A DNA stretch of 42,323 nt, taken from the NCBI RefSeq assembly GCF_024102715.1, contig NZ_JAGFJM010000013.1, positions 1 to 42,323 on the forward strand, written 5' to 3'. How positions within the stretch are numbered: position 1 is the first letter of the stretch; every line of letters begins with the position of its first letter. The notes beneath the pieces were generated by a model, which made no database searches, was not told the origin of the DNA, and was given only the letters and a program-made list of their open reading frames with translations. Positions 21,637 to 42,114 of the stretch are shown piece after piece. This DNA comes from Nitrosomonas communis. GTDB lineage: Bacteria > Pseudomonadota > Gammaproteobacteria > Burkholderiales > Nitrosomonadaceae. The translations under genes and the position numbers were made by a program.

Positions 21637-22065
21637 TTACCGAATCGGTGGCGCCCCCTTTGCTGAATCATGGCGAGGTTTGGAAAATTTATCTCTCCCA
21701 CTTATTATCTCAGCCGCTTCACCCTCGAAATGAGCTGCCGCATCAAGGAGAGGCTGAGGATTGCCGCCTTGCTGTGCAATAATTTCTGCCGTCGCCATAT
21801 ATTGCGCCACCAGCAATTTCAGCTGCTCGGAGTATACTGGGTCCTCCACTTTTAGGCGCTTGTCGTTTTCCTTCAATATTTTAACTCTCTTCTCCCCTTT
21901 TTCAGGTTTAGCTTTTTCAGGTTTAGCTTTTTCAGGTTTTCCTATCTGATCAGGCTTTTTCTCCGGAGCTGCATACGCTGATAGGGAAATCCCTCCTGCG
22001 CCAATCGTTACAATCACAGCGGCAAGAGTAAGGACGCTCTTCAGTGAGTAAGTGTAGTATTTCAT
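21637..22065 (-). CDS. Small secreted Lys/Glu/Pro-rich protein, function unknown
   Basis: A 142-residue protein I cannot assign to a family. It begins with a signal peptide (core VLTLAAVIVTIGAGGISLSAYA, cleavage near AYA-AP). A strongly charged, repeated segment KPEKA-KPEKA-KPEKG (about 42-57) and a basic stretch KRVKILKENDKRLKV follow. A predicted helical half comes next (YSEQLKLLVAQYMATAEIIA; LLDAAAHFEGEAAEII), and the tail is polar. No cysteines or membrane anchor are visible after the signal. It lies 55 bp downstream of the Agd3-like deacetylase on the same strand and is probably co-transcribed. That suggests, without proof, a periplasmic or matrix-associated accessory protein that contacts polysaccharide. 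Confidence 0.8.
   Translation of the reverse strand: MKYYTYSLKSVLTLAAVIVTIGAGGISLSAYAAPEKKPDQIGKPEKAKPEKAKPEKGEKRVKILKENDKRLKVEDPVYSEQLKLLVAQYMATAEIIAQQGGNPQPLLDAAAHFEGEAAEIISGRDKFSKPRHDSAKGAPPIR
21897..21941 (-). repeat. Three 15-bp tandem repeats encoding KPEKA units
   Basis: A 15-base unit (plus strand CTTTTTCAGGTTTAG) occurs twice exactly and a third time with changes only in its last bases. It encodes the Lys-Pro-Glu-Lys-Ala repeats of the small secreted protein and keeps frame if units are gained or lost. Confidence 0.92.
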
Positions 22066-22120
22066 TTGAATATCCTCTTAATTGTTAATTTTTCAGCATA
22101 ATTTCCGTCGCGATGAATGC

Positions 22121-24262
22121 TCATTGCGTCAGCGCCCGGTTAACGTTAAGTGTCGTTGGCGTCGTATTTACGCTAGTAAGCTGCCTGATTATCTGGCCAC
22201 CATAGAGCTGTCCACCGGCTACGCCTGTGATAAAAAGATTCTGCACAGCTTTATCTGCTGACAAAGTCACGGTATTGGCGGCACGATTCCATGTTGCTTG
22301 AATGGCGGCGGTTTTAGAGTTAAGCCTATCCCTTGTCTGGTTGCCAATCCTGTAATAGGGATAATTCTTGACTGGCAGCTTAAACAACTCCTCGTAGATT
22401 GCGAAGACAGCGTTTAACCAGTCAAACTGAAGCGTATTACCGTTTTCATCATATTTGGCCAGGTTCGACTGATGGAAATAATGAGGCCATTTATTAAAGG
22501 TCAGCATATGCCGCACTGCGCTGTCAGCTTCAGCCGTGAGAATTTCCTCATAAGTCCGAGTAGCGCAGATAGCCCCAGGTATTGCACATGGGTCCTGTCC
22601 GGCATTTACAAATCGATCGTGAAAAATATAGTTGTACTCATCAACCAACTGATCCGGGTTAATTACATTGTAGAAAACATTGGTCGGCCAGCGCGGCAAC
22701 ATGAGGCGATTGCTGCTGCTGCCATCATCGTACTGCGTAATAAACTGCTCAATATTCTGAGCCTGCTGCGATGAGTCGGAGGCAAGATAGTTCACACCTG
22801 CGCTGGCGGCAGCTTGTAGGAATAGCGGACTGGCCCCACCCTGATCAAACGGTATGTCGTCATCCTGAACGTTGAACATCTCTGGATGCAGTTCAGGATA
22901 ATCGGTGCAGTTACGGTCTTTCAAACCAGAGTGATTGCCAGTCACGATAACCTGATTATTAGCACTTTGCTCAGGCAGACCCAGAAGTCCCCACACCGTC
23001 CGGTTCTTGGTAATCTCTGCCTTGATCGCCGCTAGAGTAGTAAAGGTATCGTAATCACAATTTGGATTAGCCGGTACGGGCGCTTTATCCATATCTGCAT
23101 GACTAAAGGTATGGTTGATGAAGCGGAAATGATTTTTGTTGGCAACCACCGCTGCCACCAAATCTTCTGTCAGGTTTGCAGTGAGTGTCGTCGCGGCCGG
23201 ATCAACTACCGCTCCAGCGCCATTGAATGCAAAATCTAGCTTGAAAGCACCTGCTGTCGGAAATGCAGCACGAAAAGCAGTCTGCTTACTTACACCATTG
23301 CTGATATCACTGCTGTTCAACCGATAAGTTTGCAACGGATTGTCTGCACTAAGAGCGGGATCCCATAGCGTATTATCAAGAAACAAGTCATCCAAATGGG
23401 CGGCCATATGAACGAAGCGTGCTCCAATGAATACCCCTTGAGTCGCCCAGTTGACAAACTCATAGGCCAGCACCCTTGAATGAAGGAGGAATGGGGCATG
23501 AGTAATCGTCGAGAACATAACTTCACGCACTGGTGTTGTTCCGGGCGGCACTATGTACTGTATGATCGAGACCAATGCCTCTCCATTCTGAGTTTTTAGA
23601 AGCGGCACCACACGAGGCACAGTACCATCCCGTGGACCCAGCGTGTCATTACGAGGATTGGCTGCAAAGGCAAAATCCGTAATCGGAAGCGGATTCGCCT
23701 GATTAATATACTCAAAAACTTCTTTCTGATAGTTAGCAGGCACTGACCACTGAGCACTGTAGTTCGCTCCGCTAGAAGAATAGGTCAGACCGTAATCCAG
23801 ATAGATTCCAAACGGTGGATTGGGATCCCAATAGGTGCCAGGCCACCCTGACAACACCGCTTCGCGCACACGAAAATCTTTTTGGTAATTATGCAGAATA
23901 TCCCATTCTGACGGCGTGAAGTTTGGAACCAAGTCAGCATCTGTCAGAATAACGCCATTGTAGTTACCTACACAACCAGCTTCCTGCGAGCTGCAGGCCG
24001 CTCCATTTGAAGCAGAGGCAAGCATTGCAGCTGTTAAATCGTCTGTTGCGGCATTTAATACATCATAGGGCACGCCCATTTCATCAAGAACAGGCTTGAT
24101 AAAGCTGAGCCCCAGATCTTGCGCTTCGCTTCCCGTGGAAATAACCAGCACTCTCAGCTTAACGGCATTATCAGCAAATGCAGATGTCACCACCACAAAT
24201 GAAGCTAGCCACACTGCTACTGTGACTAACAGACCACCTCTTATACTCCAGTTCTTTTTCAT
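22121..24262 (-). CDS. Secreted polysaccharide deacetylase, Agd3/CE18-like
   Basis: A 713-residue exported protein (signal core LLVTVAVWLASFVVVTSAFA). After an N-terminal domain of about 230 residues, a deacetylase-type metal site is visible: AAHLDDLFL (Asp291-Asp292) and NHTFSHADMD (His384, His388), the D-H-H pattern of NodB-like carbohydrate deacetylases. Further conserved-looking segments are TGNHSGLKDR and FNVQDDDIPFDQGG. Overall length and architecture recall fungal Agd3 (CE18), which deacetylates GalNAc residues of galactosaminogalactan; this is from memory and not a search result. I start at MKKNWSIRGG, which has an AGGGGA ribosome-binding site 7 bases ahead; an upstream start would place 24 residues before the signal peptide. 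It is followed by the small KPEK protein, and a sigma-54-type promoter lies in front. Confidence 0.8.
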   Translation of the reverse strand: MKKNWSIRGGLLVTVAVWLASFVVVTSAFADNAVKLRVLVISTGSEAQDLGLSFIKPVLDEMGVPYDVLNAATDDLTAAMLASASNGAACSSQEAGCVGNYNGVILTDADLVPNFTPSEWDILHNYQKDFRVREAVLSGWPGTYWDPNPPFGIYLDYGLTYSSSGANYSAQWSVPANYQKEVFEYINQANPLPITDFAFAANPRNDTLGPRDGTVPRVVPLLKTQNGEALVSIIQYIVPPGTTPVREVMFSTITHAPFLLHSRVLAYEFVNWATQGVFIGARFVHMAAHLDDLFLDNTLWDPALSADNPLQTYRLNSSDISNGVSKQTAFRAAFPTAGAFKLDFAFNGAGAVVDPAATTLTANLTEDLVAAVVANKNHFRFINHTFSHADMDKAPVPANPNCDYDTFTTLAAIKAEITKNRTVWGLLGLPEQSANNQVIVTGNHSGLKDRNCTDYPELHPEMFNVQDDDIPFDQGGASPLFLQAAASAGVNYLASDSSQQAQNIEQFITQYDDGSSSNRLMLPRWPTNVFYNVINPDQLVDEYNYIFHDRFVNAGQDPCAIPGAICATRTYEEILTAEADSAVRHMLTFNKWPHYFHQSNLAKYDENGNTLQFDWLNAVFAIYEELFKLPVKNYPYYRIGNQTRDRLNSKTAAIQATWNRAANTVTLSADKAVQNLFITGVAGGQLYGGQIIRQLTSVNTTPTTLNVNRALTQ

Positions 24263-24384
24263 AAGAATTCCCCTCTCAACTCGATATACAAAAAAAAAGC
24301 TAGTGTCGCTTTTTAAGCCCAATAGTTCATGCAATCTTTGACCACTTTTAACGATTGCCTCACCACAAACTATATTAAATACAT

Positions 24385-24401
24385 TGCATGATTCATGCCA
24401 A
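24385..24401 (-). promoter_or_regulatory. Candidate sigma-54 (RpoN) promoter for the deacetylase gene
   Basis: The minus strand reads TTGGCATGAATCATGCA. GG and GC are separated by exactly ten bases, and the element matches the consensus YTGGCACG-N4-TTGCW except at two positions. The expected start lies about 12 bases downstream, giving a leader of about 110 nt to the ATG at 24262. I saw no comparably good sigma-70 promoter here. Confidence 0.6.
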
Positions 24402-24461
24402 GATCAAAAATATACAAATAATCATAATGTTACCCACGCACAAAATTCAGTCCTGTATTAA

Positions 24462-24487
24462 AGTGTAAAATTCCCCGACAAAATTCT
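24462..24487. repeat. Direct repeat copy 1 (26 bp)
   Basis: Matches copy 2 at 24938-24963 in 23 of 26 positions and in the same orientation; the core is CCGACAAAATT preceded by AGTGTAAA. It may be an end of a decayed mobile element or a repeated regulatory site. Confidence 0.7.
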
Positions 24488-24937
24488 AGCGTATGCACTT
24501 TAGTCTTTTAGATAGTCAATTGACCTTGCCAATCCAGCAGTTGATGGAATTTGCACCGTAGAAACAGACGACAATGATGCATCTGGAAACTGCGACGCCC
24601 GAGTACATGCAAAAACTAGGACGGGCACTCAAACGGATCTCTCTTGGATGACTCTCTCATAAGAAGCTCTATGGCAGGACAAGGCACAATGACGCGGAAT
24701 AGTTACTCTATTCTATGGAGTTACAGCATAGTCACATGCCCGTAGAATCATGCAATCTACACTGGAGCGGCAACACTTGAAAGGTGAAAATGGAAATTAT
24801 GGTAAAGGTTGCACAATATGCGCAATGTTAACACCAGAAAATAAGCGCTCAATGCTCAACACTCAATCGAGAAAGTCGGATTAAAGCAAAGCAGAGAGCA
24901 AAATACTATTAATATGTTGAATATATTACTCAACTAG

Positions 24938-24963
24938 AGTGTAAAGTTCTCCGACAAAATTTT
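24938..24963. repeat. Direct repeat copy 2 (26 bp)
   Basis: Second copy of the element at 24462-24487, displaced by 476 bp, with three mismatches. Confidence 0.7.
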
Positions 24964-25462: not shown

Positions 25463-26875
25463 ATGACTGAACCAGAAATGATCCAAGCCTCTAATATTCC
25501 TCCTATCAACTCCAAAATTAACTCAACAAGAAGATTCTCGGCGCATAAAATATGCCAACCCCAAAAAGTAAAAAGCTTAATTCAACTACTTTTAACTATG
25601 TTGCTACTTATAGCAAATATCAGTTTTGCTGAATTTATTTCTCCATCCAGCTTATTAAATAAAAGAGGCTCATCTTCACCACAACCGCTAGATACTGTTA
25701 CTGTTAAAGATCAGCAAGGCACAGACGACAATTGGAACAACTATATAGAATTTGAACCAGGCTCCCAAGGATATCAAGGAATCTTCAAATTTAACCTTCC
25801 AGCTAGTCCAAACAAAGCAATTTCGGAATTAATATTCCATGCGAATTACCGTGGCCCAGAAAAGTCCATTCAAAAATGGGAATTCCAGTTACTTAATAGT
25901 TCAGGGAATTGGATTTCTATCGCAGACAATCACAATATTGTAGATTGGGTTTGGAGCGATATTATTTCAGTAATCAAAGAGCCCGGTCAATTTATAAACA
26001 ACAAAAATCAGATCACTTTACGCTACCGAACATCAAGTCACGTAGACCATAGTCAACTTGACTACCTTGCTTTCGAAATCAGCAACCTGGAATCAAATTC
26101 TCCTGAAGTTGGTCATAATACGTCAGAACTGGATGATGTTATCACTGTTACACCATCACCGACAGCTGGAACCCGTTGGCAACCAACTCCCGGGTTAAAG
26201 TGGCAAATCCAATATCATGACTCGCTCGATACCTCTTTGAATGTCGATGTTTATAACATTGACCTGTTTGATACCAGCGCAACAGCTATCTCAGCATTAC
26301 AATCAAAGGGTAAGTATGTTATTTGTTATTTTAGTGCGGGTAGTTACGAAAACTGGCGTCCTGATACCGGCGCCTTTCCAGCATCGGTTCTCGGTCGCAA
26401 TCTGGATGGCTGGGCAGGTGAAAAATGGCTGGATATCCGGCAATTAGATATTCTGATTCCGATCATGCAAGTACGCATGAAGCTGGCTGCTAAAAAAGGC
26501 TGTAACGGTGTTGATCCTGACAATGTTGACGGCTACAGTAACAATACGGGTTTCCCTCTCAGCTATAACAATCAACTGGCTTATAACATAGCCCTTGCTG
26601 AAGCTGCGCATGATCTTGGACTCGCCATAGGCTTGAAGAATGATGTTGATCAAATCAAGGATCTTGTGAATTATTTCGACTTTGCAGTAAATGAAGAGTG
26701 CTTTCAATATGGTGAATGCAATACACTCAAACCATTTATCAATGCTGGAAAAGCTGTTTTTGGCATAGAATATAATCTTTCAAATTCGAGTTTCTGTCCG
26801 CAAGCAAATTTGATGAATTTCGATTTTCTCAAGAAAAAATTATCTCTCGATGCCTGGAGAGAATCCTGTAGATAG
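25463..26875 (+). CDS. Secreted GH114-type glycosidase with N-terminal beta-sandwich (putative endo-alpha-1,4-polygalactosaminidase)
   Basis: A 470-residue protein. A charged 36-residue leader precedes a hydrophobic signal segment (SLIQLLLTMLLLIANISFA). Residues about 75-207 resemble a beta-sandwich, perhaps carbohydrate-binding. Residues about 240-470 are a TIM-barrel of the GH114 family: WQIQYHDSL, VICYFSAGSYENWRPD, WLDIRQ, then the acidic GVDPDNVDGY (Asp351-356) and FAVNEECFQYGEC (Glu411/412), which likely hold the catalytic acids. GH114 members hydrolyse alpha-1,4-galactosamine polymers; fungal Ega3 is the reference. It lies beside galE and the pel genes and may trim or release the polymer. 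An AAGGAA ribosome-binding site fits the ATG. Confidence 0.87.
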   Translation: MTEPEMIQASNIPPINSKINSTRRFSAHKICQPQKVKSLIQLLLTMLLLIANISFAEFISPSSLLNKRGSSSPQPLDTVTVKDQQGTDDNWNNYIEFEPGSQGYQGIFKFNLPASPNKAISELIFHANYRGPEKSIQKWEFQLLNSSGNWISIADNHNIVDWVWSDIISVIKEPGQFINNKNQITLRYRTSSHVDHSQLDYLAFEISNLESNSPEVGHNTSELDDVITVTPSPTAGTRWQPTPGLKWQIQYHDSLDTSLNVDVYNIDLFDTSATAISALQSKGKYVICYFSAGSYENWRPDTGAFPASVLGRNLDGWAGEKWLDIRQLDILIPIMQVRMKLAAKKGCNGVDPDNVDGYSNNTGFPLSYNNQLAYNIALAEAAHDLGLAIGLKNDVDQIKDLVNYFDFAVNEECFQYGECNTLKPFINAGKAVFGIEYNLSNSSFCPQANLMNFDFLKKKLSLDAWRESCR

Positions 26876-26889
26876 CGCTGAACTGCCAA

Positions 26890-27051: not shown

Positions 27052-28071
27052 ATGAATATTCTCGTAACAGGTGGCGCAGGCTATATCGGCAGCCATACCG
27101 TCATTGAACTCATAAATAATGGATACGATGTCATAATTATTGATAATCTATCAAACAGCAGTAAAGAAGCAATTATTCGCGTAGAAAAAATTGTTGGTAA
27201 AGCACTTCCTTTTTATAAAAAAGATGTACGAGACAAAAAAGCACTTGAGGTAATATTTTCAAATCATCGAATAGACGGGGTTATTCATTTTGCTGGCCTT
27301 AAAGCCGTTGGCGAATCGGTCAAGGTACCACTTAAGTATTATAATAATAACCTTAACTCTACCCTCTCTCTCCTAGAGGTGATGGAATTTCATGACACAA
27401 AGCAGCTGGTTTTCAGTTCATCCGCCACTGTGTATGGCGATCCAGTAAGCGTACCAATCAAAGAATCTGCTACGCTTCCCGCCAAGGTTACCAATCCCTA
27501 TGGCCAAACAAAGCTTATTATCGAAACAATACTCATGGATCTCGCGATAACGAATAATAATTGGCAAATTACTGCACTGCGCTACTTTAACCCAATTGGC
27601 GCACATGAATCCGGCACCATTGGTGAAGATCCAAGTGACATACCCAATAACCTTATGCCATATATTAGCCAAGTCGCAATCGGCAAACTTAAGGAGCTCT
27701 CGATATTCGGCAATGATTACCCTACTCGTGACGGTACCGGCGTGCGTGACTATATCCATGTAACTGATCTTGCAAAAGCGCACGTGGCAGCCCTTAATAC
27801 GCCAGCCCCACCAAACAAGTACCGCGCAATAAATGTAGGTACCGGCAAAGGTACCAGTGTGCTCGAGCTTGTCAATGCCTTCGAACAGGCAAATGGCGTA
27901 AAAGTGCCATACAAAATTACTGGGCGCCGTCCCGGTGATGTCGCAGAATGCTATGCCGATCCAAGCTTGGCGCACTCTATATTAGGTTGGCAAGCACAAA
28001 AAACGATTGAAGATGCCTGCGCAGACTCCTGGCGCTGGCAAAGCGCTAATCCTAATGGATACAAAGGATAA
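27052..28071 (+). CDS. galE: UDP-glucose/UDP-N-acetylglucosamine 4-epimerase GalE
   Basis: A 339-residue short-chain dehydrogenase-type epimerase. The NAD site is GGAGYIGSHT. The catalytic Ser-Tyr-Lys is seen in FSSSATVYGD and NPYGQTKLI, and NNLMPYISQVA and GTGVRDYIHV are further GalE hallmarks. In the segment GDVAECYADPS, Cys300 occupies the place of Tyr299 of E. coli GalE and Cys307 of human GALE. A small residue there admits N-acetyl sugars, so interconversion of UDP-GlcNAc and UDP-GalNAc is predicted. In Pseudomonas the epimerase PelX supplies UDP-GalNAc for Pel, and this gene is the obvious counterpart. It follows the GH114 gene by 176 bp and faces pelB tail-to-tail. Confidence 0.95.
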   Translation: MNILVTGGAGYIGSHTVIELINNGYDVIIIDNLSNSSKEAIIRVEKIVGKALPFYKKDVRDKKALEVIFSNHRIDGVIHFAGLKAVGESVKVPLKYYNNNLNSTLSLLEVMEFHDTKQLVFSSSATVYGDPVSVPIKESATLPAKVTNPYGQTKLIIETILMDLAITNNNWQITALRYFNPIGAHESGTIGEDPSDIPNNLMPYISQVAIGKLKELSIFGNDYPTRDGTGVRDYIHVTDLAKAHVAALNTPAPPNKYRAINVGTGKGTSVLELVNAFEQANGVKVPYKITGRRPGDVAECYADPSLAHSILGWQAQKTIEDACADSWRWQSANPNGYKG

Positions 28072-28267: not shown

Positions 28268-31200
28268 TTAGAAGCGGATAGAGTATTGCAGGCCTATTCC
28301 CTTAAATGCTTGATCAGTCTTACCCCCCTGGATATTACTATAAAATGCTCCGGCACTAAGTATGTCAGGACCTAGCAATGAAATTCCGACGCCTATCCGT
28401 CCGGTATAACCCAACACATTGTTCGGCCACACCCATCCTGTCCAGGCATCCGCAAGAAAAAACGGGCGCCTCAGCACACCCTGATCAGATGGTCCATAAC
28501 GAAAAGTAGTACCTGCACCCATGGTACCAAACCTCTTCGTGATCAGTGTCTCTACATCTGCTACCGGCGCTGCAAATAACCCAGTCAATTCAGAAGGAAG
28601 TGTCCCTGCAAGATCATTGCTTTCCCATGTTCCCTGGAGTCTGATCTGCCAATCCTGAATGCCTGTAAGCAGAGAATTTGCCAGTATCCCTTGCAGCTTA
28701 TAGCCTTTACCCAGAGTACTCCTTTCTCTCGTCAAATAACGATGCGCATCAATATCTAAACTCATGAATGTTTGCCGAGTTAATTGAGTAGATACATTGA
28801 ATAAAATAATATCTTTTCTTCCTAACGCTCGTAACGGCCCTGTTTCTTGGCTTATTTCATTCACTCCTAGACGTAAGCTTGTTTTCACACTATTGGTAAT
28901 ATCCTGGCTAACCTTAGCCGCGCCATATACCACAGATTTATCGTCTCTGAGGTTGCCGCCTAGATTCAACTGGAGCATTCCTTCTCGCAGCGGATGTGTA
29001 AACTCTGTCGCTATATCTACTTCGCTATCTACAGGCAAAATAATATTAGGATCTGATGAATTCAGATGCGTATACTTAAGCTCCATTCCGAGTGTGCCAC
29101 GTAAGTAGGGTGCAGTAAAACGCGTCCGACCCTCGATAAAATCTATATCTCCAAGACTTCTATAATCAAAGCCGCCTATCAGCTGCTTGCTTGATTTCAC
29201 TGCTAATTCATCTCTGGCCTGGAAAAAATATGTTTGCAATGCTGGCGTTTGCCCTTTAGCTGGATCAAGCAGATCATAGGTTAGCGCCAAGGCCTCTTCA
29301 TTTCTGTTAAGACGCTTAAGCGCATCCATTTTATTAAACGCTGTAAGCTTATCGTTTTCATTTTCAAGTATATGCTCAGCAGCAGCGAGATCATTTGCCG
29401 TCAAAGCTAAAGTAAGGCGTTGCCAGGCTGGTGTTTCTTGTCTGGCAATATGTTCTTGCAACAACCAATAACGCGCGGCAGCATAATTCTTCTGAGATAG
29501 ATATGCGGCAACAAGCAGCTCCTGAACAACAGGATCATCGTAGCCTTGTGCAAGGCGCTTTTTCAAAATGGAAACTTCAGCATCTGCACCTTCCATGTCT
29601 CGCACTAATGCTAAATATTGCGGATGCAATAAATCCTTAATACTTTTTTCTGACTTGTTTCCAGCCTCATTAAAACGTGATCTTAAGTTAAATAAAACAT
29701 ATTGACGCAGACGCCAAGCTGCATCCGCATGCCCAGCCCGACTCAAGACATCTGCATAGGTAAGCTGCCAGAGATAGTCATCGGGACTGATTTGTGATTT
29801 ACGCTCAAGCCAAGGTAAGGCTTCTTCGTACTGACCTATCGTAGCTAATGCTATACCATAAACACCCCATAACATCGAATTTTCTGATGCATCCGTATGC
29901 CACATTTCAAGATAAGATTGCAGTGAATTTCTATCATGTCGCTCAATGAGACTCCACAAAATCCCTTCTTTGGCCGTAGTTGATGCAGGATTAACTGTTA
30001 AAGCCTGTTGATAATGCTTTATAACCATTTCAGGTTTGTTCTCATGAATATCCAGCTGGGCTCGCAACAACCAATACATCTCTGAATCCTCGAATTTTGC
30101 TTCATCATTCATTGCTATTTTTACGAGCCGCTTTAGTTCTGTTGGCATACCGGCCTGATTAGCCACATCCATAGAAAGCAATAACCAGCGTGATTCATTA
30201 AATCGAGTATAGGCTTCTTCACCGATTGCGATAGTTTCTTCTGCCCTATCCTTATCACGCATCATCTGAATCAACCGTTCTACCACAAGTGCATTAGCAT
30301 TTCTCGATTCCCAGAGCGTGTTATAAGCTAAAAAAGAATATTCAGGCTGTTCTAGCTCCCAGGAAAGCTCGCCTAGAATCTCCCAGTAATAAGAATCTTT
30401 TTCTGTCACCTCATCTTGGCTTGATAACAAGAGAGAAAATGCCTCCTCTGATTGGCCATTTCTCCACATTAATCTGGCTTGATGGGCCACAGCTTCCGGC
30501 AGACGATTGAAATATTCTCCAATATATTGCCATGTTGCCATTGCCTCGGCTATTTGTCCGGTATTTTCCTGCGTTTTAGCCAATGCCTCCCATGCTTGTA
30601 AGTTATTCGGATAACGCTTTAAATAGGATTCTAAAAAATTAATATGATCGGATAAATTGCCTGCCTCATTATAAGCAAACAATAAGTTGCTCACCTCTTC
30701 CTCGGTTAGTTCCCGTGTGCTTGCCAACTGCTCCAACATTTCAATGGTGATATTAAAAAAATATAGCTCTCTTGAAAGCTTGGCTGCATTCAGAATTGCC
30801 ACATCATCCTTCCTATTTCTGGCTAACCATAACCATTCTTTAAATGCTACCGCCGGCTTGTCATTCCATTCTGCAATACGCGCTAAACTTTCATGGGCAT
30901 TATGATCATCTGGCACAATGCCGATTAACCGATAAGCTAGCACCAAAGCTGATTTAATTTCCTCGGCAGCAAGCGCACGTTCAATTTGTTTTTTAATTTG
31001 ATCAGGATTATCAGGATCCAATGTCAGGCGCACAATACCCATTTCATATGCATGTCTTGGTTTATTGTCAGCAAAATAAATACTGATCATCTCATCAAGA
31101 AGCTCTGGATCCTTCGGAAATTGCTGTTGGTAATCATGGAAATATTCCTCAGAGCGAACACTACCACCGACCGCTCGCAACACTTGCAGGGCCAGAAGCG

Positions 31201-32766: not shown

Positions 32767-33336
32767 ATGTTGATTGATTGCGAAAAAATCCTGCAATTTG
32801 TTCATCTAAGGTTTAGATTTTTCTTTTTTATTATTTTGCTTAGTTTGTTGATGTCATGTTCGGTAATCGATGTACAGAAAAGTGCTCCGCTTTCTTCTTC
32901 TGGACGTTGGCTGATTCTGCCTTTTCAGAATTATTCCCAAACTCCACGAGCTGGCGAACAAGTCGAAGAAATGCTTGCCACCTTGCTTAGAATTCGAGGA
33001 GTTCCACAAATAGAAATGTACCAGCAACAAGATGAAAACAAGAATAGCTGGCCTGAATTGAATGATCGTAAACGCCAGGAAGATGCCTTGTCATTAGCTA
33101 TTAAAGACAATGCTTCCTATGCAGTTGCCGGAAGCGTTGATGAATGGCAATACAAACTTGGTGTTGGTAGTGAGCCGGCTGTTGGTCTGACCATCCGCAT
33201 TATAGAAATTCCCTCTGGCAAAGTCATTTGGTCTGCAAGTGGAGCGCGCTCCGGCTGGAGTACAGAATCATTAAGCGGTACTGCGCAAAAATTGCTCAGA
33301 GATTTGACTTCAAGTATTGAAGTTACCAAATTATAA
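32767..33336 (+). CDS. pelC: Pel export lipoprotein PelC
   Basis: A 189-residue outer-membrane lipoprotein. A hydrophobic signal (FFFFIILLSLLMSC) ends in a lipobox with Cys31. The mature part has the PelC pattern WLILPFQNYSQTPRAGEQVEEML and IRIIEIPSGKVIWSASG. In P. aeruginosa PelC forms a dodecameric ring at the inner face of the outer membrane that funnels the cationic polymer to PelB. It is the first pel gene on the plus strand, but 616 bp separate it from pelD. A good AAGGAG site precedes the ATG. Confidence 0.9.
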   Translation: MLIDCEKILQFVHLRFRFFFFIILLSLLMSCSVIDVQKSAPLSSSGRWLILPFQNYSQTPRAGEQVEEMLATLLRIRGVPQIEMYQQQDENKNSWPELNDRKRQEDALSLAIKDNASYAVAGSVDEWQYKLGVGSEPAVGLTIRIIEIPSGKVIWSASGARSGWSTESLSGTAQKLLRDLTSSIEVTKL

Positions 33337-33952: not shown

Positions 33953-35329
33953 TTGAATAACGCGATAGCACCCAAAAAGGAAGAAATAATCAAATGGCTA
34001 GAGTCCATTGGTATTTCTATATTACTTCCAATAATTGGTTATTTTATTGATTCATTAGATCCTTTCTTCGTAAATTATGAGTTCCCCTGGTTAATTCTGG
34101 CTCCTTTATTAATTAGCCTTCGATATGGATTTGTGTGCGGAATAATGACTTGTGCATTACTTATAAGCATGATAGCAACAGGATTCTACTCCGGATGGTG
34201 GGGGATTTCATTTTTTCCAAAAGAACTGATCGTTGGCTTGTTACTAATTACACTCATTGCTACTGAATTTCATGGAATTTGGGTTCGTAAAATAAAGCTC
34301 CTAGAAAATAAATATAATCATATTAACGCGAGAATGGATAAGTTTACTCGCGCATATCATCTTCTTAAAGGTTCACATCATCAGCTGGAGCTACATGTAG
34401 CAAGTCAAGCGAAAAGCTTGCGCTCTTTTTTACTTGATTTGGAACGGCAAGTTTTATCTTTAGAAAAAAGTAGTGGCGGCCCGCTCGCGGGTATCGGTGA
34501 AAATATTCTTAAACTTTTTAGTGATTTTGCCAGTGTGCAGGTTGCTGCAATTTATGCTGTAACGGACGAGCAAAAAAAAATTAATCCTGAACCAGTGGCC
34601 TGTTTAGGGCATGCTTCCCCTTTGTTAGCTTCAGATCCTCTAGTAAGAGAAGCGTTAAGAACAGGACAGGTTGCGAGCATTAAATTAGAAGACGACATGG
34701 ATGCTGTAAAAACACTTGTCGTTATTCCTTTAATTGATGTTTATCAGAAAATCTGGGGACTGGTTGCCGTAAATGAGATGCCATTATTTGCATTCCAGGA
34801 AAGTACCATGGATTTATTTGCTATTTTGGGCGGACATATTGGTGATCTGATTAAGCGTCGCGCAGAAAGCTATCGGTACGTAGACGACAGAGGAAAAGAT
34901 TTTGAACATAAATTGCGCCGGGTTTTAAATGAAATTGAGCTCTTAAAGACATCAGCCATAATGATTGGCGCAATTATCAATTCTGATGAGTTGCGGAGTA
35001 AATATCTTGCCAGATTTCAGGCTAACTTACGCGGCGTTGATAAAATTTGGATCTTTAAAGATGAACAAAATCATGAAACTTATTTAATCCTATTGCCTTA
35101 TACGGATGAAAAAGGCGCTAATGCATTTTTGAATCGTATTGGATTATCAGAGCCTATGGCAGAAAAGGTTAGCACTGGGTTAAATAGCAAAGCCTTTAGC
35201 TATTACGATGGTGATGTTAGTATTTGCACATGGATTTTAGATAATAAAATTTCACTGAAAAAAGTTATATTAGAAATTTATCAATTTTATAAGAGCGATT
35301 TATCTAGTTATCCTAACGGCAAGAAATAA
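33953..35329 (+). CDS. pelD: Pel biosynthesis inner-membrane c-di-GMP receptor PelD
   Basis: A 458-residue protein. Four hydrophobic segments lie at about 20-110 (ISILLPIIGYFID; FPWLILAPLLISL; CGIMTCALLISMIATGF; LIVGLLLITLIA), then a coiled segment, a GAF domain (about 175-300) and a degenerate GGDEF domain (about 330-455). The inhibitory-site motif RxxD is kept as Arg360-Gly-Val-Asp363, so c-di-GMP binding is predicted; the GGDEF catalytic sequence is absent, as in known PelD. It activates Pel synthesis through the PelDEFG complex. The reading frame has no ATG near the start. TTG at 33953 is the best visible codon, without a clear ribosome-binding site, so the exact start is uncertain. Confidence 0.92.
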   Translation: MNNAIAPKKEEIIKWLESIGISILLPIIGYFIDSLDPFFVNYEFPWLILAPLLISLRYGFVCGIMTCALLISMIATGFYSGWWGISFFPKELIVGLLLITLIATEFHGIWVRKIKLLENKYNHINARMDKFTRAYHLLKGSHHQLELHVASQAKSLRSFLLDLERQVLSLEKSSGGPLAGIGENILKLFSDFASVQVAAIYAVTDEQKKINPEPVACLGHASPLLASDPLVREALRTGQVASIKLEDDMDAVKTLVVIPLIDVYQKIWGLVAVNEMPLFAFQESTMDLFAILGGHIGDLIKRRAESYRYVDDRGKDFEHKLRRVLNEIELLKTSAIMIGAIINSDELRSKYLARFQANLRGVDKIWIFKDEQNHETYLILLPYTDEKGANAFLNRIGLSEPMAEKVSTGLNSKAFSYYDGDVSICTWILDNKISLKKVILEIYQFYKSDLSSYPNGKK

Positions 35330-35331
35330 TA

Positions 35332-36342
35332 ATGCGATTATTTCTAATTCTATTTAATTTGTTTCTTCTCGCACTAGCATTAGGATTAGAAATATATAGC
35401 TTACAGTTAATTTTCAAAGAGCCTGTATCGGAGCAAGCTCTAATAACAGCACTTTTCTTTCATTTTATTGCATGTGTTGTTGCCACCTGTATTTTTCCTA
35501 AAATCATCACGCCCAGTCAAAATAGACCTCAATTAAAGGTTTATATTTTCTTCTTTGTGGTCACTTTTTATTTACCCGTAGCAGGATTAACGGGTTTAAC
35601 CTTGGCAATACCATTCATACTACGCCGCTCTTCCAAACTAAAAAAAGCAAATTTGTCTGTAAGCTTAAGTAAAATCAGAAAACTTCCTGATATACCAGCT
35701 CTAGTTACAGAAGGCAATTCTGCAGACTTACATAGCTTATATCGATCCAAAAATCCAGACAAAAGACTGCAGGCTATCTATGCTACATTAAAATTAAAGG
35801 ATCAAGACGCAGTACCAATATTGCGCATGGCACTTGGTGATCCAGTCGATGATATCAGATTGCTGGCCTACGCTTTGTTGGACCGCAAAGAACACCATCT
35901 CAGTGAACGAATAAAGAAATCGAGGCAAAAACTTGAAAAAATAGAAAACTCAAGAAACAAACAATTATATCGGCAGATTGCAAATGACTATTGGGAGCTC
36001 GCCAATCTCGGTCTCGCACAAGGAGAAATGCGAACCTATGTGCTCAATATGGCCTGCAAATACATTGAATTAGGCCTTAAATATTATCCTCAAGATTTAG
36101 GATTTTGCTTTCAATATGCACAAATTTTACTTAAGCTGGGAAGTTATGATCAAGCATATGAACAATTTAAAAAAGCTGAGAGCCTAGGAATTGAACATAA
36201 AAAATTACTGATTTACTATGCTGAAATTGCTTTTCATAAGCATCATTATCACAAAGTAAAACAATTGATGGCAGCAATAGATTTTCCCGCAGCCTATCCT
36301 CAATTATCATCGGTAGTGCAATTTTGGCAAAAAAAGAATTAA
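35332..36342 (+). CDS. pelE: Pel biosynthesis inner-membrane TPR protein PelE
   Basis: A 336-residue protein with hydrophobic segments in the first 100 residues (LFLILFNLFLLALALGLEI; ALFFHFIACVVATCIF; VYIFFFVVTFYLPVAGLTGL). A cytoplasmic helical part follows, ending in TPR-like repeats (YPQDLGFCFQYAQILLKLG; YDQAYEQFKKAESLG). PelE links PelD to the glycosyltransferase PelF in the synthase complex. It starts two bases after the pelD stop and overlaps pelF by 19 bases, so the genes are translationally linked. Assignment rests on topology and position. Confidence 0.88.
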   Translation: MRLFLILFNLFLLALALGLEIYSLQLIFKEPVSEQALITALFFHFIACVVATCIFPKIITPSQNRPQLKVYIFFFVVTFYLPVAGLTGLTLAIPFILRRSSKLKKANLSVSLSKIRKLPDIPALVTEGNSADLHSLYRSKNPDKRLQAIYATLKLKDQDAVPILRMALGDPVDDIRLLAYALLDRKEHHLSERIKKSRQKLEKIENSRNKQLYRQIANDYWELANLGLAQGEMRTYVLNMACKYIELGLKYYPQDLGFCFQYAQILLKLGSYDQAYEQFKKAESLGIEHKKLLIYYAEIAFHKHHYHKVKQLMAAIDFPAAYPQLSSVVQFWQKKN

Positions 36343-37853
36343 TACAACAAGTACGGAATTACGCTGACATTACCCTCTTGTTAGAAGGCACTTATCCCTT
36401 TATTAGAGGTGGCGTTTCAGGCTGGGTTCACCAGTTAATAGAAGGGTTCCCCCAATATACCTTTGCTTTGATTTTTCTCGGATCCAAGAAAAATGATTAT
36501 GATGAAGCAAGATACATTTTGCCTGATAATGTTATTCATCTGGAATGCCATTATTTGTGGGATCATTTTTCTATAGCTGAGCCGAAAGCCTGTGAAGGCA
36601 ATAATGATTATATTTTGAGCTCAAGAAAGCTCCATGATTGGTTCCGTAATCCTTGCTCGAGTTTTGATGAAGCAGTCATCAGCAAACTTTTGGTTACTTT
36701 AGGGCAACCTTCTGGCTTCACTGTAGAGGAGTTTTTTTATAGCGAAACATCATGGCAGCATATCTGTGAGTGTAATGACCAATATAATGCGAACAACTCA
36801 TTCATTGATTATGTATGGGCAATTAAGGCTATGCATGCTCCATTATTTAAGCTTGCCAGTATTGCTCATCAGTTTTCTTTTCGTACCGGAACAATCCATG
36901 CCGTGTCTACAGGCTTCGCAGGTTTTCTTGGCGTGCTATTGCATTATATATCCAACCGCCCCTTTATTCTTACAGAGCACGGGATTTACACTAAAGAAAG
37001 AAAAATAGATTTGCAATCTCTTTTTATTAGGGAGCATCGTGATTTATTAAGTGATGCTCATCAGATGGGAATGCAATATCAGGAAATATTATGGGTAAGA
37101 TATTTTGAATCATTAGGCCGGCTTATTTATAAAACATCTAACCCTATTATTAGCTTATATGAGAAAAATAGGGAGCGTCAGATCACTGATGGCGCAGATC
37201 CTGACCGAACAATAGTTATACCAAATGGAATAGAATCTGAACGTTTTCTTCCTATACGGACACAACGGCCAGAAAAAATTCCCCTGGTGATCGGGTTAAT
37301 TGGAAGAATTGTGCCGATAAAAGATATTAAAACTTTTATTCGGGCCATGCGCACGATTCTGAGTCAATTACCTGAAGTTGAAGGCTGGCTGATTGGTCCA
37401 GAAGATGAAGATAAAGAATATGCGCAAGAATGTAGAGATCTGGTACTGGAGCTAGGATTGGAAGAAAATATACATTTCCTAGGATTTCAAAATATAAGCG
37501 ACTTACTTCCTCGTCTAGGACTGCTGATATTGACATCAATCAGTGAAGCTTTCCCGTTAGTAATACTTGAAGCCTTTGTAAGCGGTTTGCCGGTTGTAGC
37601 AACCGATGTAGGCGCCTGCCGAGAAATCATCGAAGGTAGAAGCGAGGAAGACCGTGCTTTGGGATGTGCAGGAATAGTAGCCCCGATTGCTAATCCAGAA
37701 GCGATTGCAGCAGCTGTAATTACATTATTGACCGACGAAAATCGGTGGCATGCGGCAAGCAAAGCTGGCATTCAGCGCGTTGAGAAATATTATACGCAGT
37801 CTATCATGCTAGATGGCTATAAAACAATTTACGATCAGGCGTTGACACAATAA
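36324..37853 (+). CDS. pelF: Pel glycosyltransferase PelF (GT4 family)
   Basis: A 509-residue cytosolic GT-B glycosyltransferase that polymerises Pel from UDP-sugars. The PelF N-terminus is recognisable as LLLEGTYPFIRGGVSGWVHQ. The GT4 core has IPNGIESERFLP, VIGLIGRIVPIKDIKTFI and the E-x7-E region SISEAFPLVILEAFVSGLPV. Length matches P. aeruginosa PelF (about 507). The start is a TTG inside the end of pelE; no ATG lies between it and the conserved N-terminus. Its stop overlaps the pelG ATG by one base. Confidence 0.95.
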   Translation: MAKKELIQQVRNYADITLLLEGTYPFIRGGVSGWVHQLIEGFPQYTFALIFLGSKKNDYDEARYILPDNVIHLECHYLWDHFSIAEPKACEGNNDYILSSRKLHDWFRNPCSSFDEAVISKLLVTLGQPSGFTVEEFFYSETSWQHICECNDQYNANNSFIDYVWAIKAMHAPLFKLASIAHQFSFRTGTIHAVSTGFAGFLGVLLHYISNRPFILTEHGIYTKERKIDLQSLFIREHRDLLSDAHQMGMQYQEILWVRYFESLGRLIYKTSNPIISLYEKNRERQITDGADPDRTIVIPNGIESERFLPIRTQRPEKIPLVIGLIGRIVPIKDIKTFIRAMRTILSQLPEVEGWLIGPEDEDKEYAQECRDLVLELGLEENIHFLGFQNISDLLPRLGLLILTSISEAFPLVILEAFVSGLPVVATDVGACREIIEGRSEEDRALGCAGIVAPIANPEAIAAAVITLLTDENRWHAASKAGIQRVEKYYTQSIMLDGYKTIYDQALTQ

Positions 37854-39235
37854 TGGCAGGCATTGGGTTCAGACTACGCGAGTTAAAGAAGGGAGATACT
37901 CTTTCAGGACTTCTGCTAGCCTATGGGTTTGCCGGGATTATTGGTTCTGGTCCATGGGTGTTATCGATCGTAGGCATACTGCTAATTGGATTCATCCATA
38001 CAGAAAGCTCATCCGCGCCTTATTTTGTTGAACAGTTTCAGATATCTGTGACTTATCTGATGGCAATTTCTTTAATCCTGACGGGACCGTTACAACTATT
38101 GCTCACGCGCTTTATTGCCGACAAGTTATACGAAAAAGATGACAAACAGGTGCTGCCCAATCTGATAGGCGCTATATGCATTGTTATTGCTGTTAGTGGA
38201 ACGCTTGCAGGTTTTTGTTTAGCTTACTTGTTTACTGGCTCAGTATTATATCGTTTATTGATGCTGAGCGGTCTGGTCATCCTTTCTACCATCTGGATTG
38301 TAGTCGTTGTGTTATCGGGACTTAAGGCTTATCGTGAAATCTTGTTAGCGTTTCTGTTAGGTTATGGAATAACAGTGTGGGCGGCTAAAGAATTGGGAAT
38401 GTTTGGACTGGAAGGCTTACTTTCCGGGTTTGTAGTAGGACACAGTATTTTATTGTTCATGCTTTTGATTGTGGTTTTTAACTCCTATTCAAGCAATAAA
38501 CTGATTGCCTTTGACTTTATGCGGCGCAGTCAAATATTCATAAGCTTAGCATTTACTGGCTTTCTCTATAACATGGCGATTTGGGCAGATAAATTTATTT
38601 TCTGGTTTAACCCTGAAACAAGCAGTGCAATCATTTCACCTTTGAGAGCGTCGGAACTTTATGATCTTCCAATATTTCTTGCCTATTTATCGATTATACC
38701 CGGGATGGCGGTATTTTTATTGCGCATGGAAACAGACTTTGCAGAACAGTATACAAAATTTTATGATGCCATTAATGGTGGCGCTCCCTTAAAAATTATT
38801 TTACAAATCTACGAAGAAATGGTTGCCACAATTAAAAGAGGATTTATTGAAATCTTTAAAGTGCAGGGAATGACTATCGCTATATTGCTGGCAATAGGAG
38901 ATAAATTACTAGCGTGGGTAGGAATATCCCCTTTTTATAAAGTGCTACTAAATATAGATCTGATTGCGGTAGGCATACAAGTATTATTATTGGCTGTTCT
39001 CAACTTGCTATTTTATTTTGATTACCGTAAAGATGCTCTATATCTCTGTTTGTTATTTGCCACCTCAAACATTATATTCACTCTTCTGAGTCAATATCTA
39101 GGACCTATATTTTATGGCTATGGTTTTGCCTTGTCAGTGGCATTAACCACAATAGTCGGGATGATCATCGTCTCAAAAAGACTCAACGAGCTCCTGTATG
39201 AAACATTCATGCTGCGTTATAGAACCAATAATTAA
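37853..39235 (+). CDS. pelG: Pel polysaccharide inner-membrane transporter PelG
   Basis: A 460-residue polytopic protein with about 12 hydrophobic segments, in the MATE/MOP-type flippase-like PelG family. The N-terminus GIGFRLRELKKGDTLSGLL is characteristic of PelG. PelG is thought to move the growing chain across the inner membrane in complex with PelD, PelE and PelF. The start codon overlaps the pelF stop (TAATG), so expression is coupled. Confidence 0.95.
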   Translation: MAGIGFRLRELKKGDTLSGLLLAYGFAGIIGSGPWVLSIVGILLIGFIHTESSSAPYFVEQFQISVTYLMAISLILTGPLQLLLTRFIADKLYEKDDKQVLPNLIGAICIVIAVSGTLAGFCLAYLFTGSVLYRLLMLSGLVILSTIWIVVVVLSGLKAYREILLAFLLGYGITVWAAKELGMFGLEGLLSGFVVGHSILLFMLLIVVFNSYSSNKLIAFDFMRRSQIFISLAFTGFLYNMAIWADKFIFWFNPETSSAIISPLRASELYDLPIFLAYLSIIPGMAVFLLRMETDFAEQYTKFYDAINGGAPLKIILQIYEEMVATIKRGFIEIFKVQGMTIAILLAIGDKLLAWVGISPFYKVLLNIDLIAVGIQVLLLAVLNLLFYFDYRKDALYLCLLFATSNIIFTLLSQYLGPIFYGYGFALSVALTTIVGMIIVSKRLNELLYETFMLRYRTNN

Positions 39236-39330
39236 AAATTAATTATAAAATTTTTCTAAAGGGTAAGTCGTTTAGCTTTACTAAAAATATTTGGTTTGAT
39301 GCATTTCTAAAAGAAACACAGGACAATAAT

Positions 39331-42114
39331 ATGAAATTAGTTTTCTCGCGCTACCGCGCAAGTATAATACTTATTCATAGCATACTTTTATGGTGTATTT
39401 GCATGCCCGCATCCGCTAATTCAAGTATTGCGTTTTTCTATGGCCAATCTGTCCCGTTGGATTTACTTTCTCATTATAAGCAAGTGGTAGTGGAGCCTGA
39501 GAATATAGATAACCTAGATTATCTGCAAGCGAAGGGAACAGAGGTATTCGCCTATATCAGTATTGGAGAAGTCCATCAGACACGCTCTTGGTATTCAGAA
39601 GTTTCCAAACGCTGGTTTATGGGCAGCAATGTAGAATGGGGAAGCAGTATTATTAATTTAACCAAAGAAGGATGGCACGACTATCTAATTAATAAATATC
39701 TGACTAAGTTATGGAAAGCGGGCTATCGCGGTTTTTTTTTAGATACCCTGGATAGTTATCAAAGAGTAGTCACCGATCATGATGGTCGATTGCGTCAGGA
39801 AAAAGCATTAGCAAATCTAATTAAACGTATACATCAACATTTTCCGGGGGTTAAACTTATTCTTAACCGCGGATTTGAGATTTTGCCGGAAGTTGGTCGA
39901 TATGCTGTCGCATTGGCTGCGGAATCGCTATACCAAGGGTGGGACCAGTCCAATAAAAATTATACCGAAGTTACCGAGCAAGATCGTAAGTGGTTATTAG
40001 AGAAATTAAGGTACGCACAGAATCAATATGGATTGCAAATAATTGTCATTGATTATGTTGATTTAAAACAGAAAGAGTTAGCGCGAAAGACTGCTAAACG
40101 CATATCTGACCAAGGGTTTACGCCTTGGGTGGCAAATCCTAGCTTAGACATTCTTGGTGTCGGGCTATCAGAAATTATCCCCCGACGAATTTTGGCGCTC
40201 TACAATGGGCAGGAATATCCGGAAGGTCTGCAACAAACGGATGTGCATAAATTACTTGCCATGCCACTAGAATATTTGGGCTATGCTGTCGATTATTTGG
40301 ATGTGAACATGGGATTACCAGCAAATTCATTGACCGGGCAATATGCTGGAATCGTCACCTGGTTCAACAATGATGCCTTATCAAGGCCGATAGCTTATCG
40401 AGATTGGCTGTTACGGCAGATAGATACAGGCATAAAAGTTGCAATTCTGGGAAATTTAGGTTTTAAAGCTAATAATAGCTTTTTGCAGCATCTGGGAGTC
40501 AAATTAAGTCAGTCAGCAATAAAGGAACCACTCAAAATTGAGCAGAGCGATAAAATTATTGGTTTCGAGGCAAAGCCTCATCCCAAAACACGCGGATTTA
40601 CTGCCTGGCAAGCTCTAGCAAATATCGAAACACATCTGAGTTTAATAGATCAAAGCAAACAGTCTTTGGTGGCTGTATTTACCGGACATTGGGGCGGAGC
40701 GGCCTTACATCCTTATGTCATCGAAACTGGCTATAAAGGGCGTCAACGCTGGATTATCGATCCATTTAGATTTTTAGCTAAGGCACTTGATCTGCCAGAA
40801 ATACCTGTGCCAGATGTCACTACTGATAATGGTCGGCGCTTGTTACTGGTGCAAGTTGATGGCGATGGCGCAAGCAATAAGGCAGAAATACCGGGAACGC
40901 CATTAGCGATAAAAGTAATTCAGGATTATTTCTTGAAAAAATATAATCTGCCAGCTACCGTTTCTATCATTGAAGGAGAGATCAGCCGTAGCAGCTCATC
41001 AGACAAGCTGACGGAAACCGAAAAACTAGCGCGGGATATTTTTAAACTGAATAATATAGAGATAGCTAGCCATTCCTATAGCCACCCTTCAGCATGGTTT
41101 CAAAAGAATTATATTGTTGCGAGAGGTGATGATTTTCACCTTGCCATTCCTGAATATGAATTTGACTTGGAACGGGAAATTGCCGGATCTGTAGATTATA
41201 TTAATAAAAAATTAGCACCTGAAAAGAAGCAAGTTCGTATTTTTTTCTGGACCGGCGATGGGCTGGCAAATAAAGAAGCACTCACTTTGACACGCACACT
41301 TGGATTAGAAAACATGAATGGTGGCGGCGCTACTATGAGTAAAGATGAAAACACCATTACTCGCGTGCCCCCTCTTGGCTATGCCATCGAAAATCAACTT
41401 CAGGTATATGCTCCAATTGCAAGCGATCATATCTATACAAATGGCTGGCAAGGCCCTTTTTACGGATTTGATCGAGTCATTGAAACCATGCAGCTCACCG
41501 ACAATCCTCTTCGCCTGAAACCAATGCATATTCATTATCACTTTTATTCAGGTAGCAAAATAGCATCCATCAATACTCTTACGTCTGTCTATGATTGGAG
41601 CATTAAGCAAGAATCCAGGGCTATCTGGATAAGTGAATATACTCAGAAGGTAAAAGAATTCCAGAATATGACTATATCTCGCAGTTTGGATGGCACTTGG
41701 AATATTAGAGGGCTACAAACATTACGTACATTACGTCTGCCAGCGTCAATCGGATGGCCTGATTTCAAAAGATCCGAAGGAGTCATTGGAGTGCGGGATG
41801 TAAAACAAGGGCGCTATGTGCATCTTTTGCCAAATCGCAATGGGCAGGTTCTATTGAATACAACCTCTAAATTTCCATCAACGACTTATTTATTGCACAG
41901 TAACGGAGAAATTAAGAAGTGGCATAAAACAGCAGAAGGAGTTAATCTACAAATACATGCTCATACTCCTGTGGAGCTGTCCATTGCATCTCCAAGCCGT
42001 AACTGTTATATAAAATGGAAAGATGGTACGCTAAATGCGCAGCATCAACATCAAGGCTGGAGATTTATTTTTCCTGTAGCAAATCCCGGAAATGTCTCGT
42101 TAGTTTGTAACTAA
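39331..42114 (+). CDS. pelA: Pel glycoside hydrolase / deacetylase PelA
   Basis: A 927-residue periplasmic enzyme with a signal peptide (SIILIHSILLWCICMPASAN). The N-terminal TIM-barrel hydrolase (about 32-290, GH166/GH114-related) contains GFFLDTLDS (Asp138) and LAAESLYQGWD (Glu198), probable catalytic acids. A middle domain follows. The deacetylase domain shows LLLVQVDGDGASNKAE (Asp510, Asp512) and IASHSYSHPSAWF (His581, His585), the D-H-H metal site. A C-terminal beta-rich domain completes it. PelA partly deacetylates Pel, making it cationic, and can cleave it. In P. aeruginosa pelA is first in its operon; here it is last, 95 bp after pelG, with its own CAGGA ribosome-binding site. Confidence 0.95.
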   Translation: MKLVFSRYRASIILIHSILLWCICMPASANSSIAFFYGQSVPLDLLSHYKQVVVEPENIDNLDYLQAKGTEVFAYISIGEVHQTRSWYSEVSKRWFMGSNVEWGSSIINLTKEGWHDYLINKYLTKLWKAGYRGFFLDTLDSYQRVVTDHDGRLRQEKALANLIKRIHQHFPGVKLILNRGFEILPEVGRYAVALAAESLYQGWDQSNKNYTEVTEQDRKWLLEKLRYAQNQYGLQIIVIDYVDLKQKELARKTAKRISDQGFTPWVANPSLDILGVGLSEIIPRRILALYNGQEYPEGLQQTDVHKLLAMPLEYLGYAVDYLDVNMGLPANSLTGQYAGIVTWFNNDALSRPIAYRDWLLRQIDTGIKVAILGNLGFKANNSFLQHLGVKLSQSAIKEPLKIEQSDKIIGFEAKPHPKTRGFTAWQALANIETHLSLIDQSKQSLVAVFTGHWGGAALHPYVIETGYKGRQRWIIDPFRFLAKALDLPEIPVPDVTTDNGRRLLLVQVDGDGASNKAEIPGTPLAIKVIQDYFLKKYNLPATVSIIEGEISRSSSSDKLTETEKLARDIFKLNNIEIASHSYSHPSAWFQKNYIVARGDDFHLAIPEYEFDLEREIAGSVDYINKKLAPEKKQVRIFFWTGDGLANKEALTLTRTLGLENMNGGGATMSKDENTITRVPPLGYAIENQLQVYAPIASDHIYTNGWQGPFYGFDRVIETMQLTDNPLRLKPMHIHYHFYSGSKIASINTLTSVYDWSIKQESRAIWISEYTQKVKEFQNMTISRSLDGTWNIRGLQTLRTLRLPASIGWPDFKRSEGVIGVRDVKQGRYVHLLPNRNGQVLLNTTSKFPSTTYLLHSNGEIKKWHKTAEGVNLQIHAHTPVELSIASPSRNCYIKWKDGTLNAQHQHQGWRFIFPVANPGNVSLVCN

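Follow-up and report, generated by a model that had tools for sequence, protein, structure and literature searches.

Which enzyme deacetylates a Pel polymer when its locus encodes two candidates? The question is raised by a stretch of 42,323 nucleotides from Nitrosomonas communis (contig NZ_JAGFJM010000013.1, positions 1 to 42,323; hereafter the window), which carries a PelA with its own CE21 deacetylase domain and, in the same region, a gene for a putative CE18 deacetylase resembling Agd3 of the Aspergillus galactosaminogalactan (GAG) pathway. The choice matters, as both Pel and GAG become cationic by deacetylation. An original prediction, made from the DNA letters, had read the locus (21637-42114) as a complete pel set joined by three GAG-type enzymes and had proposed that the polymer is tuned twice. 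Here, we report that CE18 correlates with loss or alteration of the PelA deacetylase in about five lineages, with clear exceptions. On this evidence, which comes from sequences only, the CE18 enzyme is probably a Pel deacetylase: it would back up the CE21 domain of PelA and, in relatives that have lost CE21 or carry another residue in place of its catalytic base, would do the work in its stead.

The two predicted deacetylases

The window belongs to a genome of 3.05 Mb in 144 contigs, and its genes were called from a six-frame reading and a Pfam scan of 18 window proteins. (Genomes are denoted by G numbers and fetched stretches by L numbers; papers are cited by PubMed Central (PMC) number, and statements taken from them refer to the portions of their text that were available.) The 713-residue CE18 protein (22121..24262, minus strand) matched the Pfam family Agd3_CE (PF25115) at 3.3e-17, with 63 bits against a cut-off of 27.6. 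Among PDB chains, Agd3 (6NWZ) was the sole match at E values up to 1, reaching 2.5e-12 over the whole chain and 0.00039 for the best single stretch, in agreement with the predicted Agd3-like identity. The catalytic motifs of Agd3 are Asp-Asp, His-x3-His, Arg and His (PMC7229062), and the corresponding residues, D291, D292, H384, H388, R524 and H597, were intact in 45 of 46 distinct CE18 proteins, the remaining one having one X. (Motifs 1, 2 and the last were aligned to 6NWZ; the Arg was placed by conservation only.) A Sec-type signal was read by eye on the window enzyme, and an NCBIfam scan found no sorting signal on it. The CE18 protein of Thiocystis (L083:9938-13006) is extended at its C-terminus by ≈300 residues, for which Pfam gave no match.

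The second candidate is the CE21 domain of PelA (39331..42114, plus strand), which spans residues ≈500-927 and follows a GH166 hydrolase domain at ≈30-283; the protein matched PDB entries 9CGY (1.4e-191) and 5TCB (6.5e-48). We scored the seven CE21 positions named in PMC12022489 on a PelA alignment, namely H526, D528, D530, H600, H604, E723 and H761 in Pseudomonas (Pa) numbering. Esterase activity was undetectable when Ala replaced the base Asp in PtPelA, and the conserved His (Pa H526) has been proposed to activate the base (PMC12022489). The window CE21 domain keeps the base Asp, the metal Asp-His-His and the acid His as D510, D512, H581, H585 and H737, the last placed by alignment. The conserved His is not present, its place being taken by Gln508, and Asp699 stands at Pa Glu723.

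Association of CE18 with pel loci

Among 125 genomes of the family Nitrosomonadaceae, PelG was found in 29, CE18 in 27 and both in 26, so that CE18 accompanied 26 of the 29 PelG genomes, compared to one of the 96 without PelG (Fisher 1.9e-22, uncorrected for kinship). The lone CE18 genome without PelG, G326, has a CE18 fragment at a contig edge and neither PelA nor PelG, and was excluded from the PelA counts. The 34 pelG copies in the family comprise 11 of type A, a rearranged locus with pelCDEFG followed by pelA and with pelB apart, and 23 others. The type B arrangement was established from the individual genes in G335 (L037) alone; the rest are so named after a PelA match ≈9-12 kb before pelG, and G350, grouped with them, had no PelA in reach.

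The link between CE18 and pel is conserved in the type A loci: CE18 lies within 16 kb of pelG in all 11 copies. For the other 23 copies, no CE18 gene was found on the same contig at a distance of up to 280 kb, and the contigs of 15 carry none at all, some contigs being short; CE18 is nevertheless present in 15 of the 18 genomes with type B only. At least two CE18 matches per genome occur in G258, G259, G324, G346, G347 and G353, with up to eight in G259, contig-end pieces included. A scan with PF25115 of 250 genomes of the order gave the window's genome as the sole match; the seven other family genomes in that draw were not among the CE18 carriers, and the draw thus says little on the family.

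Outside the family, a scan of 84,980 species, each represented by a single genome, with two short peptide patterns gave 37 loci. Ten outside CE18 genomes were tested, from Methylococcales, Methylothermaceae, Thiocystis, other gammaproteobacterial or Chromatiales metagenome-assembled genomes (MAGs) and a Nitrospirae MAG, and all ten had a PelA match. In the Methylococcales stretches L075 and L082, CE18, its small partner (described below) and pelB, C, D, E and F lie on one strand, and in a longer stretch of L075 pelG and pelA follow pelF. The L082 row, from a MAG, also holds a further GAG-type enzyme, a Spherulin4 (GH135, Sph3-like) gene (L082:12724-13623) between the CE18 partner and pelB. Together, these comparisons bear out the predicted conservation of the neighbourhood in relatives.

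Loss and alteration of the PelA deacetylase domain

CE21 was absent from five CE18 genomes in four lineages (Nitrosomonas JL21, the MAG KLAP95, G719, Thiocystis violacea and the Nitrospirae MAG), in which the PelA matches cover the hydrolase only. JL21 and KLAP95 are each 99% complete, and their sole PelA match, at residues 6-279 or 2-279, is to the hydrolase; in both, the CE18 and partner genes come first in a co-oriented row that runs on through pelCDEFG to a hydrolase-only pelA. In G719, the pel row starts with a hydrolase-only pelA, continues with pelB, D, E, F and G, and is followed in the list of frames by CE18. In an even draw of 398 Pseudomonadota (two draws with identical totals, counted as one), 30 PelG genomes passed the cut-off, and CE18 was found in two of them, the window's genome and G719. 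A full-PelA profile detected CE21, either fused or encoded separately, in 29 of these 30 genomes, the exception being G719.

Many other CE18 genomes have an altered CE21 domain. All 22 type B PelAs of Nitrosospira that were read have Glu at H526 and Arg at the base position D528, while both hydrolase residues (Asp/Glu) are kept in 22 of 22; Asn occupies the acid place in three. The nine full-length type A PelAs, that of the window included, all have Gln at H526 and keep the base, metal and acid residues, and E723 is replaced by Asp in those of the window, G349 and G357. The Methylococcales proteins have Gln at 526 in three of three cases and Glu at D530 in two. Counted per genome read, a canonical CE21 was found in 4 of 36 CE18-positive genomes compared to 27 of 30 CE18-negative ones (28 from the draw, of which 27 are canonical, plus G348 and G356), CE18-negative meaning no match to the A1 profile, by which very distant CE18 proteins could be missed. 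One best frame was read per stretch, leaving out a second CE21 match of G386; G595, with one masked residue, was counted as canonical, and PelA residues were not read in G373 (where matches were seen) or G350. The frequent pairing of CE18 with a lost or altered CE21 in relatives suggests a back-up and replacement role.

The same data bear on the proposed double tuning, in which PelA would deacetylate the polymer while it is exported through the periplasm, and further deacetylation by the Agd3-like enzyme would follow later or outside the cell. Base and metal residues are kept in both enzymes in the window, in eight other full-length type A loci and in G370; and since the window CE21 keeps its acid residue as well, double action may take place there. 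The CE18 protein of G719 ends in a JDVT-CTERM sorting signal (NCBIfam), which suggests that this enzyme is located at the cell surface. However, double tuning predicts that both enzymes are kept, whereas CE21 was lost or its base changed in about five CE18 lineages, and the window protein lacks such a signal. Thus, the enzyme families and the shared logic of an N-acetylgalactosamine (GalNAc) polymer stand, but tuning in two steps is not favored, and we consider it possible, though somewhat improbable.

Two further features were seen in these pel loci. The pelB gene is split into two frames in JL21, KLAP95 and Thiocystis (L117:9042-12766, L118:659-4425 and L110:19-4214), all with hydrolase-only PelA, and also in L113, which has a canonical PelA; in Pseudomonas, PelB is bound by full-length PelA, but not by the hydrolase domain alone (PMC12022489). 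Furthermore, three genomes of the Nitrosomonas group, G258, G324 and G259, have a second, hydrolase-only GH166 beside a full PelA (L028:13769-14599, L029:8777-9607 and L027:5084-6133), which is a tandem duplication.

Exceptions and a possible second polymer

Several observations weigh against the back-up and replacement role. CE18 and a canonical CE21 occur together in G370, G374, G375 and G376. G671, a CE18-negative genome of the draw, also has the Gln at 526 seen in type A. An Arg-type CE21 occurs without a CE18 match in G348 and G356 (93% and 98% complete), so that Pel without either deacetylase may be viable. The CE21 of type A may be fully active, since none of the nine proteins has lost a base, metal or acid residue. 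G371 and other MAGs are of untold completeness and divergent, and a CE21 could therefore have been missed. Most counts are non-independent because of kinship among the genomes, and the cases with loss of CE21 or its base amount to about five lineages. The CBM87 match of the window CE18 protein, to its CBM87-like N-terminal domain, scored 21.3 bits, under the Pfam cut-off of 27.6 (which is passed in the CE18 proteins of L083 and L122). In Thiocystis, CE18 is on a different contig from pel, and in type B genomes the CE18 gene is either far from pel or on another contig. Finally, a GH114 of fungal origin was inactive on Pel (PMC12054363).

The position of CE18 in type B genomes and the inactivity of the fungal enzyme would also fit a different substrate: CE18 and GH114 might act on another polymer, a GAG-like galactosaminoglycan that other genes or neighbors produce, the link to pel being only inherited clustering. 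So would the several Nitrosomonas that have GH114 without PelG and the genomes with several CE18 copies away from pel. Against this stand the near-restriction of CE18 to PelG genomes within the family, the presence of PelA in all ten genomes tested outside it, and the position of CE18 within the pel row, on one strand, in JL21, KLAP95, G719 and Methylococcales (other synthases were not searched for). A second polymer thus appears unlikely to us.

A possible history of the CE18 gene

The PelG and CE18 trees have long branches and weak forks, with some joins flagged as unsafe, and were used for grouping within Nitrosomonadaceae and with Methylococcales. In the CE18 tree, three type B rows (G335, G338 and G354) fall among the type A rows of Nitrosospira and Nitrosovibrio. 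On the simplest reading, CE18 would have been acquired once, together with a type A locus akin to the Methylococcales one, and the locus would then have been lost in many Nitrosospira while the CE18 gene was retained. G346, G347 and G353, which have both pel types, carry CE18 copies also away from pel, so duplication may have come first. More broadly, Pel deacetylation may have changed hands repeatedly, with CE18 and its small exported partner taking over and CE21 then losing its base or vanishing; in Nitrosospira, CE18 from the type A locus, perhaps after duplication, would have outlived that locus and would now serve an older pel locus with a disabled PelA deacetylase. We consider this wider history about as likely as not.

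The small partner protein

An uncharacterized partner protein of CE18, on which the original prediction did not comment, is among the results added here. In the window it is a 142-residue protein (21637..22065, minus strand) whose signal-like N-terminus is followed by a charged linker and a conserved stretch at the C-terminus. The protein had no Pfam match at 0.001 and no NCBIfam match, and nothing convincing was found at laxer cut-offs or in the PDB. It is nonetheless the most constant neighbor of the CE18 deacetylase: among 46 distinct CE18 copies (frames of less than 600 residues were dropped), the partner is directly downstream in 34, fused in one, upstream in one and missing from ten. The natural fusion is found in Nitrosospira briensis Nsp8 (L038/L069; L069:9959-12418), and the upstream case is Thiocystis (L083). 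The ten copies without a partner are those of L045, L046, L048, L072, L088, L089, L090, L093, L096 and L122, six of which are the most distant CE18 proteins. The partner accompanies CE18 also where pel is distant, and we therefore assign it to the enzyme and not to the pel locus. As a guess, it might help to fold, hold or place the CE18 enzyme.

The GH114 enzyme

The 470-residue GH114 endo-galactosaminidase-like enzyme (25463..26875, plus strand), which carries an N-terminal GH114_assoc domain, matched Pfam GH114 at 1.5e-86 (289.8 bits) and Aspergillus Ega3 (6OJ1) at 1.2e-58, in an alignment that spans GVDPDNVDGY and VNEEC and includes the conserved Asp/Glu pair, whose roles are described in PMC12054363. 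With profile matches for both CE18 and GH114 and a neighborhood that recurs in relatives, the core of the original prediction holds. The window's own genome contains two more strong GH114 genes (G000:C116:63333-63989 and G000:C38:46293-46967; L034 and L035), without a pel gene in the fetched stretches.

The presence of this enzyme suggests another view, that this is an ordinary Pel locus in which PelA does the needed deacetylation, while CE18 and GH114 mainly serve release or turnover of exported Pel for dispersal. Ega3 acts specifically on GAG stretches that are deacetylated (PMC7229062), and GH114 matches with E < 1e-40 were found in all 11 type A genomes compared to none of the 18 with type B only (a GH114 frame was present in six of the ten other type A stretches fetched). 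However, turnover leaves unexplained both the loss of CE21 and the presence of CE18 in type-B-only genomes without such a GH114, and we regard it as doubtful.

Gene content and proposed pathway

From left to right, the genes are those for GlmS, GlmU, the 142-residue protein, the Agd3-like enzyme, GH114, GalE, PelB and PelC, D, E, F, G and A. As predicted, the Pel biosynthesis set is complete, PelA to PelG being assigned by Pfam and PDB matches, except for PelE (35332..36342, plus strand), which had no specific Pfam match and was placed by its position between PelD and PelF and by homology in pel loci. PelB (28268..31855, minus strand), with tetratricopeptide repeats and an outer-membrane barrel, matched B-barrel_PelB_C at 5e-87, and the lipoprotein PelC (32767..33336, plus strand), without a Pfam match, was identified by PDB entry 9H80 (1.3e-39). 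PelD (33953..35329, plus strand), with GAF and GGDEF-like domains, was assigned by Pfam and by 4DMZ (3.9e-28); its RGVD fits the RxxD motif for cyclic di-GMP. The glycosyltransferase PelF (36324..37853, plus strand) matched DUF3492 (1.9e-91) and Glycos_transf_1, and the membrane exporter PelG (37853..39235, plus strand) its own family (8.1e-149).

GlmS (17916..19763, minus strand; GATase and SIS domains in Pfam) and GlmU (19807..21186, minus strand; NTP transferase and hexapeptide, by Pfam and synteny) are neighbors that may belong to the pathway, supplying glucosamine-6-phosphate and UDP-GlcNAc, respectively. An Agd3-like copy beside GlmU or GlmU-GlmS, as at 17916-21186 of the window, recurs in relatives (L028, L030 and L091), and GlmS adjoins the split pelB in JL21 and KLAP95. 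The GalE-type UDP-hexose 4-epimerase (27052..28071, plus strand) was confirmed as an epimerase by Pfam, and its PDB matches are UDP-glucose 4-epimerases. The Uge3 likeness that had been predicted for it was rejected, as it is of the general GalE type and a GalE frame adjoins the pel genes in the window and G719 only and in none of the ten other type A stretches. Alignment with E. coli GalE places a Cys at the Tyr299 position, where we take a small residue to permit the use of UDP-GlcNAc/GalNAc, suggesting that the window GalE handles these sugars.

The region probably encodes a single Pel-type pathway to which a deacetylase and a hydrolase of the fungal GAG kind have been added. Its UDP-GalNAc would be supplied by GlmS/GlmU and GalE, and from this PelF, with PelD, PelE and PelG, would make and move an alpha-1,4-GalNAc chain, to be exported by PelB and PelC. 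The CE18 enzyme and its small partner would remove N-acetyl groups from the polymer, as a back-up to CE21 here and as its replacement in relatives, and GH114 would then cut the deacetylated stretches, for chain length or turnover. Pel as the substrate of CE18 and GH114, the order of these events, the role of the partner and the envelope site of CE18 action are what we infer from the gene families and their arrangement.

Comparison with known systems

The Aspergillus GAG cluster comprises agd3, ega3, sph3, uge3 and gtb3. The window shares with it CE18 and GH114 side by side and an epimerase (and L082 of Methylococcales has the Spherulin4 gene), but differs in the use of Pel proteins, which would make and export the polymer, and in its general-type GalE. 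Sph3/Spherulin4 was not found among the 18 window proteins scanned with Pfam (the rest of the genome was not searched).

Agd3 homologs have been described in 45 bacterial species, with GH114 "highly consistent" beside them and Gram-negative operons that include Pel outer-membrane-like genes (Bamford 2020, PMC7229062). As the combination of Agd3, GH114 and Pel-like genes was thus published in 2020, it is not new as such. Our loci have in common with those operons the CE18 homologs near Pel outer-membrane-like genes, with GH114; what the present data add to the available part of that paper are the Nitrosomonadaceae, the loss of CE21, the small partner and the changes at Pa His526/Asp528. The Pseudomonas Pel system (PMC12022489) shares the pelA-G set, homology over full-length PelA and the hydrolase residues; the window differs from it by pelB standing apart on the other strand, pelA coming last, Gln at His526, and the added CE18, GH114 and partner. 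In Bacillus cereus, PelADA (CE26/CBM114) is likewise a three-domain, Agd3-like deacetylase serving Pel, but belongs to another CE family and a Gram-positive organism (PMC13254593). Nitrosospira multiformis has a duplicated pel operon with a pelA rearrangement, and pelB fission occurs in other species (Bundalovic-Torma 2020, PMC7112194). This agrees with the two pel types in Nitrosospira, whereas the results on CE18 and the PelA active site come from the present data. Searches of the open-licence PMC literature, supplements not covered, found nothing on CE18 in ammonia oxidizers or on CE18 replacing CE21; nor did that literature hold anything relevant on a galactosamine matrix or a pel operon in Nitrosomonas, or on Agd3 in Nitroso-organisms.

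Implications

The deacetylase activity of PelA is needed for biofilm formation in Pseudomonas aeruginosa (PMC12022489). The genomes described here, with CE21 intact, altered, without its base or absent and with CE18 as an outside enzyme, make it testable which enzyme sets the charge of Pel and whether deacetylation must be coupled to PelB. They also point to a cationic, Pel-like matrix in ammonia oxidizers and methanotrophs, organisms with biofilms of importance to soils and wastewater treatment.

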